Source: Azospira sp. I13 (lineage in GTDB: Bacteria; Pseudomonadota; Gammaproteobacteria; Burkholderiales; Rhodocyclaceae). Taken from it: a stretch of DNA of 64,000 nt. The stretch is from NCBI RefSeq assembly GCF_003112695.1, contig NZ_BFBP01000002.1, positions 196,898 through 260,897 on the forward strand, written 5' to 3'. The position numbers and the translations under genes are program-made. The notes beneath the pieces were generated by a model. That model was not told the origin of the DNA and did no database searches. It saw only the letters and a program-made list of their open reading frames with translations. This document shows positions 18,876 through 47,488 of the stretch, piece by piece (the stretch's first letter is position 1; every line of letters starts with the position of its first letter).

Positions 18876-19193
18876 TCAGCGGAAAAACTCCTCCAGCCGC
18901 TCGAACACCGCATGGTCCGCCCCATGGCGGCGCACGCTACGCACGTCCTCCAGCTTTTCCACCTGCTTGATCATCTGCTCCAGGCGCCGGTCCTCCAGCA
19001 CCAGCAGCCAAATGCGGCTATAGCGGCCGTCCCCCACGGGCAGGCAGAGGATGCCTTCGACGTTGTAGGCACGGCGGGAGAACAGGCCCACCACGTGGGA
19101 CATGACCCCGGCGTGGTTATTCACCTCCAGCTCCAGCACGGTGCGTTGGGGATGGGCCAGGGCGGCGTTTTCGTTCTTGCTGACGGCGTTCAT
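18876..19193 (-). CDS. ilvN: Acetolactate synthase small (regulatory) subunit
   Basis: A 105-residue protein with one ACT domain ([20 protein letters not shown], then [11 protein letters not shown]), the short form seen with IlvB of acetolactate synthase I, unlike the 160-residue IlvH. It binds valine for feedback control and activates the large subunit. The start at 19193 has GGAGG five bases upstream, inside the end of ilvB; a TTG four codons earlier is less likely. Its translation is probably coupled to ilvB. Confidence 0.9.
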
Positions 19194-19194
19194 C

Positions 19195-20913
19195 TCAGCC
19201 TCCAATCATGTCGGTGTTGGCGGCGCCGGGGGGCACCATGGGGTAGACCTTCTCGTTCATGTCGATGAAGGCATGGATGAGGCAGGGGCCGGGCCGGGCG
19301 AAAGCCTCCCGCAGGGCGGCCCGGGGGTCGTCCACCGTATCCAGGTTGAGGGTATCGAGGCCGAAGCCTTCGGCGATCTTGAGGAAATCCGGCTGGCCGG
19401 AGAACTTGGAGGCGAAGTAGCGCTTGCCGTAGAACAGCTCCTGCTGCTGATACACCAAGCCCAGGGCGTCGTTGTTCATCAACACGATCTTGAGGTTGGC
19501 GCCGGTCTCACGGATGGCCGCCATTTCCTGGATGTTCATGAGGATGCTGCCGTCGCCGGTGAAACAGACCACCGTGCGCTCCGGCTCGGCCAGGGCGGCG
19601 CCGAGGGCGGCGGGCACGCCGAAGCCCATGGTCCCCAGGCCGCCGGAGGTCAGCCACTGGCGCGGTCGGCGCAGGGGGTAGGCCTGGGCCACCCACATCT
19701 GGTGCTGGCCCACGTCGGTGGCGATGGTGGCGGAGTCGTCCAGGCAATCGGCCACCGCCTGGATCAGGCCGTAGTGGCTGCGCGGGTCTTCCAGATTGGG
19801 CCGCTGCAGGGGGAAGCGGGAACGCAGGTCGCCCATGTGGGTGAGCCAACGCTTGCGCAGGTGGGGTTCCACCAGGGGCGAGAGCTTTTCCAGCACCTCT
19901 GCCACGTCGCCGGTGATGCCGACGTGGGCATTCTTGATCTTGTCCAGTTCGGAGGGGTCGATGTCGATGTGGATGATCTGGGCCTTGGGGCAGAAGGCCG
20001 ACACCTTGCCGGTGGCCCGGTCATCAAAACGGGCGCCCACTGCGATGAGCAAGTCACACTCCTCCAGCAACAGATTGGTGTAACGGGGGCCGTGCATCCC
20101 GAGCATGTGGATGGAGAGGGGATGGTCCACCGGCATGGCACCCAGGGCCATGAGAGTCATGGTGGTGGGCAGGGAGGCTTTTTCGGCCAGGGCCACGGCA
20201 GCAGCGGCGGCACCGGAATGCACCACGCCGCCGCCCAGGTAGAGGATGGGCCGCTCGGCGGCATTGATCATGGCGGCGGCCTTCTCGATGGCGGCCATAT
20301 CCGGCGCCGGCAGGTCCTGGCGACCGCCGGGGGCGGGCCACTGGCTGACCTCGATGGCCTGGGCCTGCACGTCCTTGGGAATATCCACCAGCACCGGGCC
20401 GGGACGGCCGGAGGCAGCCAGGGTGAAGGCCCGGGGAATCACCTCCAGCAGTTCCTCGGCGGAGTTCACCAGGAAGTTGTGTTTGGTGATGGGGATGGTG
20501 AGGCCGTAGGTATCCACCTCCTGGAAGGCATCGGTGCCGATCATGCTGCGGGGCACCTGGCCGGTGATAGCCACCAGGGGGATGGAATCCAGCTTGGCGT
20601 CGGCAATGGCGGTGAGCAGGTTGGTGGCACCGGGGCCGGAAGAGGCAAGGCAGACGGCGGGCTGGCCGGTGGCCCGGGCCATGCCCTGGGCCAGGAAGCC
20701 GGCGCCCTGCTCATGGCGGGCCAGCACGTGGCGGATTTTCGTTGATGCCGAGAGGGCATCATAGAACGGCAGGATGGCGCCCCCCGGGATGCCGGAGAGG
20801 GTGGTGATGCCCTGGCGCTCCAGCAGGCGGACGACGATCTGGGCACCGGTGAGGGTTTCCGGCGCTGAAGCGCTTTCCTCGGCGGGGGAAAGTTGGGGGG
20901 CGGTACTGTGCAT
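19195..20913 (-). CDS. ilvB: Acetolactate synthase large subunit, biosynthetic type
   Basis: A 572-residue thiamine diphosphate enzyme that joins two pyruvates, or pyruvate and 2-oxobutyrate, as the first common step of valine, leucine and isoleucine synthesis. The catalytic glutamate is in RHEQGAGF (E68), the FAD-binding middle domain follows, and the ThDP-magnesium motif is [13 protein letters not shown]. The start has AGGAG about ten bases upstream. About 60 bases before it lies a 15-bp terminator hairpin, preceded by a valine-rich leader peptide, so transcription of ilvBN is very probably attenuated by valyl-tRNA supply. Confidence 0.94.
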
Positions 20914-20964
20914 GGCTGGGTTTCTCCTGGGTGATCCGGCTTTTCGGTCCGGCGGGGAGTCCCA

Positions 20965-21008
20965 GAAAACGAAACCCCCGCCGGGCTGTCGCGCCGGCGG
21001 GGGTTTCG
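20965..21008 (-). terminator. Attenuator terminator of the ilvBN leader
   Basis: On the minus strand, CGAAACCCCCGCCGG (21008-20994) pairs perfectly with CCGGCGGGGGTTTCG (20984-20970) around a 9-base loop and is followed by TTTTC. It stands between the leader peptide stop (21030) and ilvB (20913). A 13-base leader segment at 21047-21059 can pair with 20990-21002, covering the loop and most of the first arm, which would prevent this stem. Confidence 0.85.
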
Positions 21009-21029
21009 TTGGGAATTCGGTTGGTTTCT

Positions 21030-21182
21030 TTACCGGATTTCGTCCACCCCTGCGGCGCGCACGTGGCCTACTACTACGCTTACTACAGCGCGTACGACCA
21101 CACCGCCGCCAATAATGGACGCGCCCACGCCTGCCCGGAGGGACAGAGCGGCAGAACGGTCGAGGCAGGCGGAGCGTTGCAT
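21030..21182 (-). CDS. Valine-rich leader peptide of ilvBN (ivbL-like)
   Basis: A 50-codon frame from ATG 21182 to TAA 21030. Its second half reads IIGGGVVVRAVVSVVVGHV: nine valines and two isoleucines in 19 codons. Six of these valine codons are GTA, a codon rare in the neighbouring genes, which would make stalling sensitive to valyl-tRNA. Leader, antiterminator and terminator follow in the order known for enterobacterial ilvB (ivbL), and a TTGCAC-N18-CATAAT promoter lies just upstream. The weak point is initiation: no Shine-Dalgarno precedes the ATG, so an internal GTG (Val of RAGVGAS) is an alternative start. Confidence 0.8.
   Translation of the reverse strand: MQRSACLDRSAALSLRAGVGASIIGGGVVVRAVVSVVVGHVRAAGVDEIR
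21047..21059 (-). promoter_or_regulatory. Antiterminator strand in the ilvBN leader
   Basis: Minus-strand CGCGCCGCAGGGG directly follows the valine codon cluster and is complementary at 11 of 13 positions to minus-strand CCCCGCCGGCGCG (21002-20990), the loop and first arm of the terminator. A ribosome stalled on the valine codons would leave it free to pair; one that reaches the leader stop would cover it. Confidence 0.7.
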
Positions 21183-21230
21183 GGTGGAAATCGCGACGAG
21201 GGACGAAGAGGGTAAAAAATTGATCGAATG

Positions 21231-21260
21231 ATTATGCAGAATTTGTTTCATGAGGTGCAA
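21231..21260 (-). promoter_or_regulatory. Promoter of the ilvBN leader
   Basis: Minus-strand -35 TTGCAC (21260-21255), 18-base spacer, -10 CATAAT (21236-21231), in the only AT-rich stretch upstream of the leader peptide. A start of transcription near 21224 would give an untranslated leader of about 40 bases before the leader ATG. Confidence 0.65.
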
Positions 21261-35146: not shown

Positions 35147-35212
35147 CGCAACCCCGCCTTATTGGCCCCCCTGCATTGCGGCCCGGCGTCCGCCTGGGCT
35201 ATCATCCGCCCC

Positions 35213-35406
35213 GATTCAGGTGCCGAGCCCCGCCTTCCGCGGGATCGGTGAAACGGGAAGCCGGTGACACTGGGAACACCCCCAGCCATTCCGGCGCAGC
35301 CCCCGCTGCTGTAAGCCAGACGACGCTGCCTCACGCCACTGTGGTTCACCACGGGAAGGCCGGCAGGGAAGAATGAAGGCAAGCCAGAAGACCGGCCTGA
35401 CATCAC
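35213..35406 (+). ncRNA. Cobalamin riboswitch before the cbiMNQO-cob operon
   Basis: The stretch carries the conserved blocks of the cobalamin riboswitch in order: GGTGAAACGGGAAGCCGGTG (from about 35247), GCGCAGCCCCCGCTGCTGTA, the GCCACTG block (35335), a GGGAAGG block, and the closing GCCAGAAGACCGGCC, the normal GCCAGGAGACCGGCC with one change. About 145 bases separate it from the cbiM start. When coenzyme B12 binds, expression of the whole cobalt and corrin operon should fall. No clear intrinsic terminator follows, so control may be at translation or through Rho. Confidence 0.92.
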
Positions 35407-35550
35407 AAGATGCACCATTCCCCGGGGTGACGGGAACGGTTCTGGTGATTTGCCGCCTTCACATTGCTCCATCCGCCGCGGCCCTTTATCCGACCTGCCA
35501 CAACTCCCCCGCCTGGTGCGCCATTGTCATGCTCGCCGAGGGAGAGACTC

Positions 35551-46996: not shown

Positions 46997-47109
46997 CCGA
47001 CCTGGCTTCGGCAGACGCAAAGGCACACCACAACAAGCACAGCAGCGGCCCCGCCCGGAGGCCGCGGCATTGATCAGTTGCACTCCGGGCCAGTAGCAAC
47101 ACCAACCAG

Positions 47110-47345
47110 CAGGTGCCCGCGGCAACGCGGGTGAAACGGGAACAGGGTGCGCGGCGATATCTTCGCTGCCAAGCCCTGGCTGCCCCCGCAACGGTAAGCG
47201 AGTGCGGAACGGTCATGCCCCTTCCTCTCCGGAAGGCGCAGCCACTGTGGTCCGCGGATCCATCGGAGCAACGCTCCGCCGGGCCTGCCCCATGGGAAGG
47301 CGACCGCTCAAGACTCGCGAGCCCGGAGACCGGCCTGCTGATATT
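47110..47345 (+). ncRNA. Cobalamin riboswitch before the TonB-dependent receptor
   Basis: A second set of cobalamin riboswitch blocks: GTGAAACGGGAACAGGGTG (about 47131), GGCTGCCCCCGCAACGGTAA, GCCACTG (47240), CATGGGAAGGCG and the closing GCGAGCCCGGAGACCGGCC. It is longer than the first copy because of extra sequence in the variable stems. About 140 bases separate it from the receptor start. Hairpin-forming GGTGCCCC/GGGGCGCC follows at 47349-47368 and may be part of the expression platform. Confidence 0.9.
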
Positions 47346-47488
47346 CAGGGTGCCCCGGGAGGGGCGCCAAACCAGGCGACCGGCTGCGGGGATGCAGACG
47401 GAGCCGGGCCGCGATGGAAGGCAGGCTGACGCCTTGTCTTCCCCTGCCCGCTCCCGAGATCGGCCGGATCGCCCCAAGGGAGTCTTTC

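Follow-up and report, generated by a model that had tools for sequence, protein, structure and literature searches.

The window analysed here, by which we mean the whole stretch of 64,000 nt, comes from Azospira sp. I13 (contig NZ_BFBP01000002.1 of assembly GCF_003112695.1, positions 196,898 to 260,897) in the GTDB family Rhodocyclaceae. Its minus strand carries an ilvBN operon, whose products match NCBIfam NF006016 and NF006036, which we take to be models for the AHAS-I subunits, as in IlvBN of E. coli. A leader is placed directly upstream of ilvBN, 54 nt separating its terminator stem from ilvB. The features, in order of position, are as follows.

18876–19205, minus strand: ilvN, acetolactate synthase small subunit, 109 aa (NF006036, 156.5 bits against a cut-off of 128)
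19195–20913, minus strand: ilvB, acetolactate synthase large subunit, 572 aa (NF006016, 1018.5 bits against a cut-off of 870)
20924–20928, minus strand: AGGAG, likely ribosome-binding site of ilvB, from sequence reading
20968–21010, minus strand: intrinsic terminator with a 17-bp perfect stem (21010–20994 pairs with 20984–20968), a 9-nt loop and a T-rich 3' side; −39.0 kcal/mol predicted
20990–21002, minus strand: strand 3, CCCCGCCGGCGCG, common to antiterminator and terminator
21013–21018, minus strand: GAATTC, a form of the GAWTY block just 5' of the terminator, from a motif count in relatives
21030–21182, minus strand: leader open reading frame of 50 codons, MQRSACLDRSAALSLRAGVGASIIGGGVVVRAVVSVVVGHVRAAGVDEIR, with ATG at 21182 and stop TAA at 21032–21030, from reading and script, with counterpart frames in relatives
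21047–21059, minus strand: antiterminator strand (strand 2), CGCGCCGCAGGGG, within the leader frame past the valine cluster
21060–21116, minus strand: control codons 23–41, nine Val (six of them GTA) and two Ile of 19, by script
21231–21260, minus strand: promoter-like pair, TTGCAC (21260–21255) and CATAAT (21236–21231) separated by 18 nt, from reading and script

The window's genome has a second acetolactate synthase locus (L220) with a longer small subunit, where reading by eye reveals no valine-rich leader.

Valine occupies leader codons 28–30, 33, 34, 36–38 and 41, and isoleucine codons 23 and 24. A preliminary description of this DNA, made from its letters, had reported a 50-codon leader with nine valines and two isoleucines in 19 codons, six of the valine codons being GTA, and these counts are right by script for codons 23–41. 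At least 11 Val or Ile codons of 19 would be expected with P = 6.6e-7 per position, given the V+I frequency of 33 naively chosen open reading frames of the window, and six GTA among eleven valine codons with P = 1.3e-6. The promoter proposed in the same description, TTGCAC-N18-CATAAT, does have the spacing given, and by reading both the 18-nt spacing and the −10 element recur in the closest relative; the window's −35 box, however, agrees with the consensus at only three of six positions by reading, and a promoter consensus scan finds no site at the leader. Nor does reading show a clear Shine-Dalgarno sequence ahead of the leader ATG. The poor −35 box and the lack of a promoter site and of a clear Shine-Dalgarno sequence count against an attenuator model.

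The terminator described before ilvB is indeed a perfect stem, of 17 bp rather than the 15 bp reported, and the pairing of an antiterminator strand at 11 of 13 bases is confirmed between 21059–21047 and 21002–20990, where CGCGCCGCAGGGG and CCCCGCCGGCGCG form 7 bp, a 2x2 loop and 4 bp. Folding of the leader RNA had been suggested as a check, and the RNA from 21235 to 20914 folds with z = −4.1, none of 100 shuffles being equally stable. RNA reaching from the edge of a ribosome stalled at codons 36–37 to the terminator loop is predicted to adopt the antiterminator fold, at −27.6 kcal/mol. When strand 4 is added to the same truncated RNA, the terminator prevails in the predicted fold, so antitermination must be kinetic.

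Comparison with relatives begins within the genus, of which we had two other genomes. The closest relative (G002), whose IlvB is 93% identical, keeps the valine frame and the pairing (7 bp and 3 bp by reading), so the loss of either in close relatives, which had been named beforehand as grounds for abandoning the proposal, was not seen. The third genome (G001) has a diverged AHAS-I-type operon (L192, IlvN identity 69%), which stands apart from the other two copies of the genus (L115 and L116) on the IlvB tree. For a duplex of upstream RNA with the 5' arm of the terminator, the number of shuffles out of 100 that do as well is 1 in the window, 15 in G002 and 13 in G001. In single genomes, the signal of pairing against shuffles is generally weak, with a median z of −1.7 and at most one of 100 shuffles as good in 27 of 111 loci.

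An IlvN of the window's type (E 1e-20 or better) is found in 98 of 199 sampled genomes of the family and in only 7 of 369 sampled genomes of the class, the window's included. We fetched 99 places in the family; two cut by contig ends (L129 and L157) were left out, while L139 and L202 were retained as misses. Upstream DNA is readable at 97 family loci, and 95 of them have both the terminator motif and a valine-rich frame. The two others, L139 (in G135) and L202 (a second copy in G140), are AHAS-I-type operons without an attenuator, and by reading an apparent rhodanese-type frame precedes ilvB in them. The 95 leaders of the family and two named loci (L035 and L043) make up the set of 97 that we call family-type. 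Their best 14 codons hold at least seven Val or Ile in 83 leaders and four to six in the remaining 14. A strict finder of perfect stems spans the terminator motif in 73 of the 97 and gives no hairpin, or another one, in 24, mostly in lineages with a bulged or interrupted stem; the counts were made by motif search instead. The leader stop codon starts inside strand 2 in 57 of the 97; in the other 40, among them the window, it lies at the end of that strand or past it. In the window it is about 15 nt past strand 2, whereas leaders of the E. coli type have it inside. The GAWTY block just 5' of the terminator is present in 68 of the 97 family-type leaders (3.1 expected) and in 7 of 7 enterobacterial ones (0.2 expected), and in none of seven other AHAS-I loci.

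Candidatus Accumulibacter, a betaproteobacterium, falls inside the window's family on the IlvB tree, and Tepidiphilus, of the NCBI class Hydrogenophilia, has a leader closely like those of four family genomes, in agreement with a family of the extent of Rhodocyclaceae. AHAS-I-type operons of other lineages also follow leaders built in this way. By reading, all six AHAS-I loci from other families of the class sample have valine-rich frames and terminator-like repeats. In family f147, each of the 11 genomes that have such an ilvB gave a frame in which Val or Ile fill 6 to 10 of 14 codons; the leader of G634 (family f71) has only four. A metagenome-assembled genome assigned to Opitutaceae (Verrucomicrobiota) carries an AHAS-I-type ilvB with a valine leader and terminator by reading (L045), which possibly reflects long-distance transfer or a binning error.

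Conservation of the two stems was assessed in 81 aligned sequences. In the terminator, 93.3% of cells are paired, and sliding by one column lowers this to 63–66%; in the antiterminator, 83.7% are paired, and no slid version exceeds 53%. Covarying stems in relatives had been put forward as a further check. In the terminator, four pairs changed on both sides, and on the tree five or six of seven contrasts for pair 154/183 go one way and none the opposite way (p 0.03–0.06). The best covarying antiterminator pair is G-C in 58 and A-U in 13 of the 81, at a position just outside the counted terminator stem; on the tree it offers four independent contrasts, and averaged over these there is no difference in 3.0, agreement in 0.9 and disagreement in 0.1, which is not significant. 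The stronger evidence for the antiterminator is a swap test over 15 types of strand 3 (nine family-type, six from outside), in which strand 2 fits its own strand 3 better than others (p = 5e-5); L219, however, comes only 12th of 15. A protector (1:2) stem between an Arg codon of the valine cluster and strand 2 is unsupported, with 73.8% of cells paired and a covariation score that is as high in 278 of 500 shuffles.

The window's leader is homologous to E. coli ivbL at the RNA level. An RNA model (R1) was built from the alignment of 81 of the 97 family-type leaders, after removal of those at least 85% identical and with no enterobacteria included, and was searched over 87 sources. It recovers all seven enterobacterial ivbL leaders tried, scoring them 78–91 bits (E 3.3e-17 or better), and the window, whose sequence is among the 81 used, scores 88 bits. 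Of seven other AHAS-I loci, six score 48–64 bits and the seventh, L219, only 30, and there is no match in the two leaderless loci. R1 reaches E below 1e-3 in five of 70 generic AHAS loci, with no score above 38 bits; valine- or isoleucine-rich leaders of their own are present in four of the five, and in the fifth (L054) no leader was found near ilvB. The likeness to ivbL-ilvBN of E. coli and other Enterobacteriaceae extends to the ilvBN type of the operon, the valine-rich leader, the antiterminator right after the valine cluster and the C-rich/G-rich terminator.

The Rfam, Pfam and NCBIfam models tried do not capture this element in the window. Rfam gives no family at gathering score at the window's leader, and in six further loci, three of them enterobacterial ivbL (L037, L040 and L042), it gives no match for the attenuator; an istR match in L037 is unrelated. 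A candidate assignment to Leu_leader (RF00512) was rejected, the window scoring 19.1 bits against a gathering score of 50. Elsewhere in the window, Rfam reports two cobalamin riboswitches, at 35201–35414 and 47094–47352, both on the plus strand (107.5 and 90.7 bits). The models of the IvbL peptide, Pfam PF08049 (IlvB_leader) and NCBIfam NF007579 (IvbL), describe a product likewise valine-rich and encoded upstream of ilvB, but neither matches the window's peptide. None of five non-enterobacterial leader peptides reaches their cut-offs, one scoring below them (17.6 of 25 and 18.6 of 60 bits). Annotation misses the leaders that we tried: no IvbL-model cut-off is reached by the five peptides, and no Rfam match to this element is obtained in the window and the six loci. 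Other arrangements resemble the one described here. Four control loci (L059, L064, L075 and L101), which we take to carry the ilvL-ilvGMEDA attenuator, likewise have a branched-chain leader and a terminator before an AHAS gene, but their Ile/Val-rich peptide has another sequence and R1 gives them at most 22.3 bits against 88 in the window. The ilvB-II and ilvB-OMG motifs, as far as the available text of PMC10272879 describes them, also have a short ORF rich in branched-chain amino acid codons before ilvB, with a terminator in ilvB-II; the difference noted is that no Rfam family attains its gathering score at the window's leader.

Taken together, these observations make it very probable that the leader is a ribosome-mediated transcription attenuator of the ivbL-ilvBN kind. 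The enterobacterial ivbL logic proposed in the preliminary description is borne out by the NF006016 and NF006036 matches, the recovery of all seven enterobacterial leaders by R1 and the leaders of 95 of 97 family loci; its term "translational" is not, since the mechanism is transcriptional. RNA polymerase, presumably starting from the promoter-like pair, would transcribe the leader while a ribosome translates it. When charged tRNA-Val is short, the ribosome would stall within the valine cluster, leaving strand 2 free to pair with strand 3 while strand 4 is still to be transcribed; this pairing would block the terminator, and ilvBN would be transcribed. When tRNA-Val is charged, the ribosome would move on to cover strand 2, the 17-bp terminator would form and transcription would end before ilvB.

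A simpler reading is a plain intrinsic terminator before ilvB, the valine-rich frame being an accident of GC-rich sequence with no sensing at all. It would agree with the frequency of open frames in the window's DNA and with the weak promoter and Shine-Dalgarno sequence, but valine-rich frames occupy this position in 95 of 97 family loci, and each of the 97 family-type leaders uses GTA more than the ilvB that follows it. An accidental frame would preserve neither valine nor a rare codon for it, and we consider this reading highly improbable. There is similarly little to recommend the idea that the leader peptide itself acts in trans, as is described for peTrpL in the part of the source available. 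Some relatives do share a peptide end with E. coli IvbL (the GNAP ending), yet the length, start and end of the peptide vary widely where control codons and RNA pairing are kept, and where the end is conserved, it overlies the antiterminator strand. Elsewhere, ilvB genes are preceded by ppGpp riboswitches and other RNA motifs (available text of PMC10272879), but given the Rfam results at this leader, Leu_leader included, the probability that ilvB is controlled by a known riboswitch, a T-box or another catalogued RNA is close to nil.

The window's family departs from enterobacteria in the valine codons of the leader. In the last 30 codons of the 97 family-type leaders, valine is encoded by GTA in 61% and GTG in 7% of cases, against 2% GTA and 58% GTG in ilvB of the same loci, and GTA is enriched over same-locus ilvB in 97 of 97. 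Between leader and ilvB, none of the A-ending codons for Ala, Gly, Pro, Thr, Arg and Leu differs in use by more than 6 points; the bias is specific to valine. Enterobacterial leaders use GTG (52%) and GTC (45%), with 3% GTA, as opposed to the GTA control codons of the family-type leaders. By standard wobble rules, GUA is read by tRNA-Val(UAC) alone. Among the matches of one search pattern, the tRNA-Val genes of the window's genome comprise UAC (two), GAC and CAC. All 26 family genomes tested have tRNA-Val(CAC) (found by pattern in 20 of 22, and by a tRNA model in the remaining two and in four more genomes), as do G439, G501 and G634; ARAGORN read the anticodon in all of them. Among the matches listed, no such gene turned up in 14 further genomes of the class, four of them less than 90% complete, in five enterobacteria or in the Opitutaceae MAG; the absences in G516, G573 and G654 are the weakest, as no tRNA-Val anticodon at all was read there. 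Twelve loose strings with a CAC or near anticodon in the genomes where the gene was not found are not tRNAs.

For 49 loci, and among the matches listed, GTA exceeds GTG in the leader in 28 of 29 with tRNA-Val(CAC) in the genome and in none of 20 in which it was not found. The exception with CAC is L137, and two cases are marginal, L213 (one GTA, five GTC) and the poor leader of G634. Three of three independent contrasts go in the same direction; there being only three, the link between codon and tRNA cannot reach significance. We hypothesize that the valine control codon changes with the host's tRNA-Val genes. Selective charging of isoacceptors has been described as a determinant of regulatory codons (PMC1183508, in the text available). 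Alone, that theory does not say which isoacceptor limits, so the causal step is our own inference: the tRNA repertoire of the host may set the control codon, with tRNA-Val(CAC), where present, relieving GUG and leaving GUA as the control codon, and with GUG or GUC serving where it is absent. We advance this tentatively, as possible rather than probable, together with the suggestion that the enterobacterial ivbL-ilvBN perhaps came from the window's family, bringing its attenuator along. In a quick IlvB tree, the enterobacteria are nested within that family with starred support, and the AU test does not reject a family-only clade (p = 0.376, 78 of 122 rows used), so we claim no direction of origin for the enterobacterial operon.

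GTA might instead have been chosen as a rare or slow codon in GC-rich genomes, or G-rich GTG might be avoided as mispairing with the C-rich terminator, with tRNA-Val(CAC) playing no part in either case. This explanation falls just short of being probable: GTA makes up 0–16% of ilvB valine codons in loci of genomes with tRNA-Val(CAC), codon use and tRNA content are correlated, and there are only three independent contrasts. On the other hand, GTG is retained beside C-rich terminators in enterobacterial and f147 leaders. Enterobacterial leaders also use GTG and GTC although GTA is the rarest valine codon of ilvB there, hence a preference for the rarest codon is no general rule.

In the literature that we searched, "leader peptide" and "Rhodocyclaceae" occur together in no paper, and among the matches listed, judged by titles and the beginnings of abstracts, none deals with ivbL in Betaproteobacteria. 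Such leaders may be mentioned for Betaproteobacteria in the survey of Vitreschak et al. (2004), which lay outside the scope of this search. Attenuation by upstream ORFs has been suggested as a common mechanism for ilvB genes (PMC10272879, in the text available), while ilvB goes unmentioned in the available main text of PMC2965389.

The kind of switch is familiar from E. coli ivbL; what is new is its breadth and the codon pattern. The textbook ivbL switch is not peculiar to enterobacteria, since homologous RNA stands before ilvBN in a large betaproteobacterium-like family. The shift from GTG to GTA alongside a tRNA-Val(CAC) gene offers a direct and cheap test of how tRNA charging determines attenuator sensitivity. 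If the shift does follow the tRNA genes, a single homologous switch in distant lineages would put the selective-charging theory of attenuation to a natural test. Branched-chain leader-like peptides were also noticed before other acetolactate synthase genes, in Fibrobacteres, Myxococcales, Rheinheimera, Alishewanella and Breznakibacter records (L067, L056, L082, L062 and L073).
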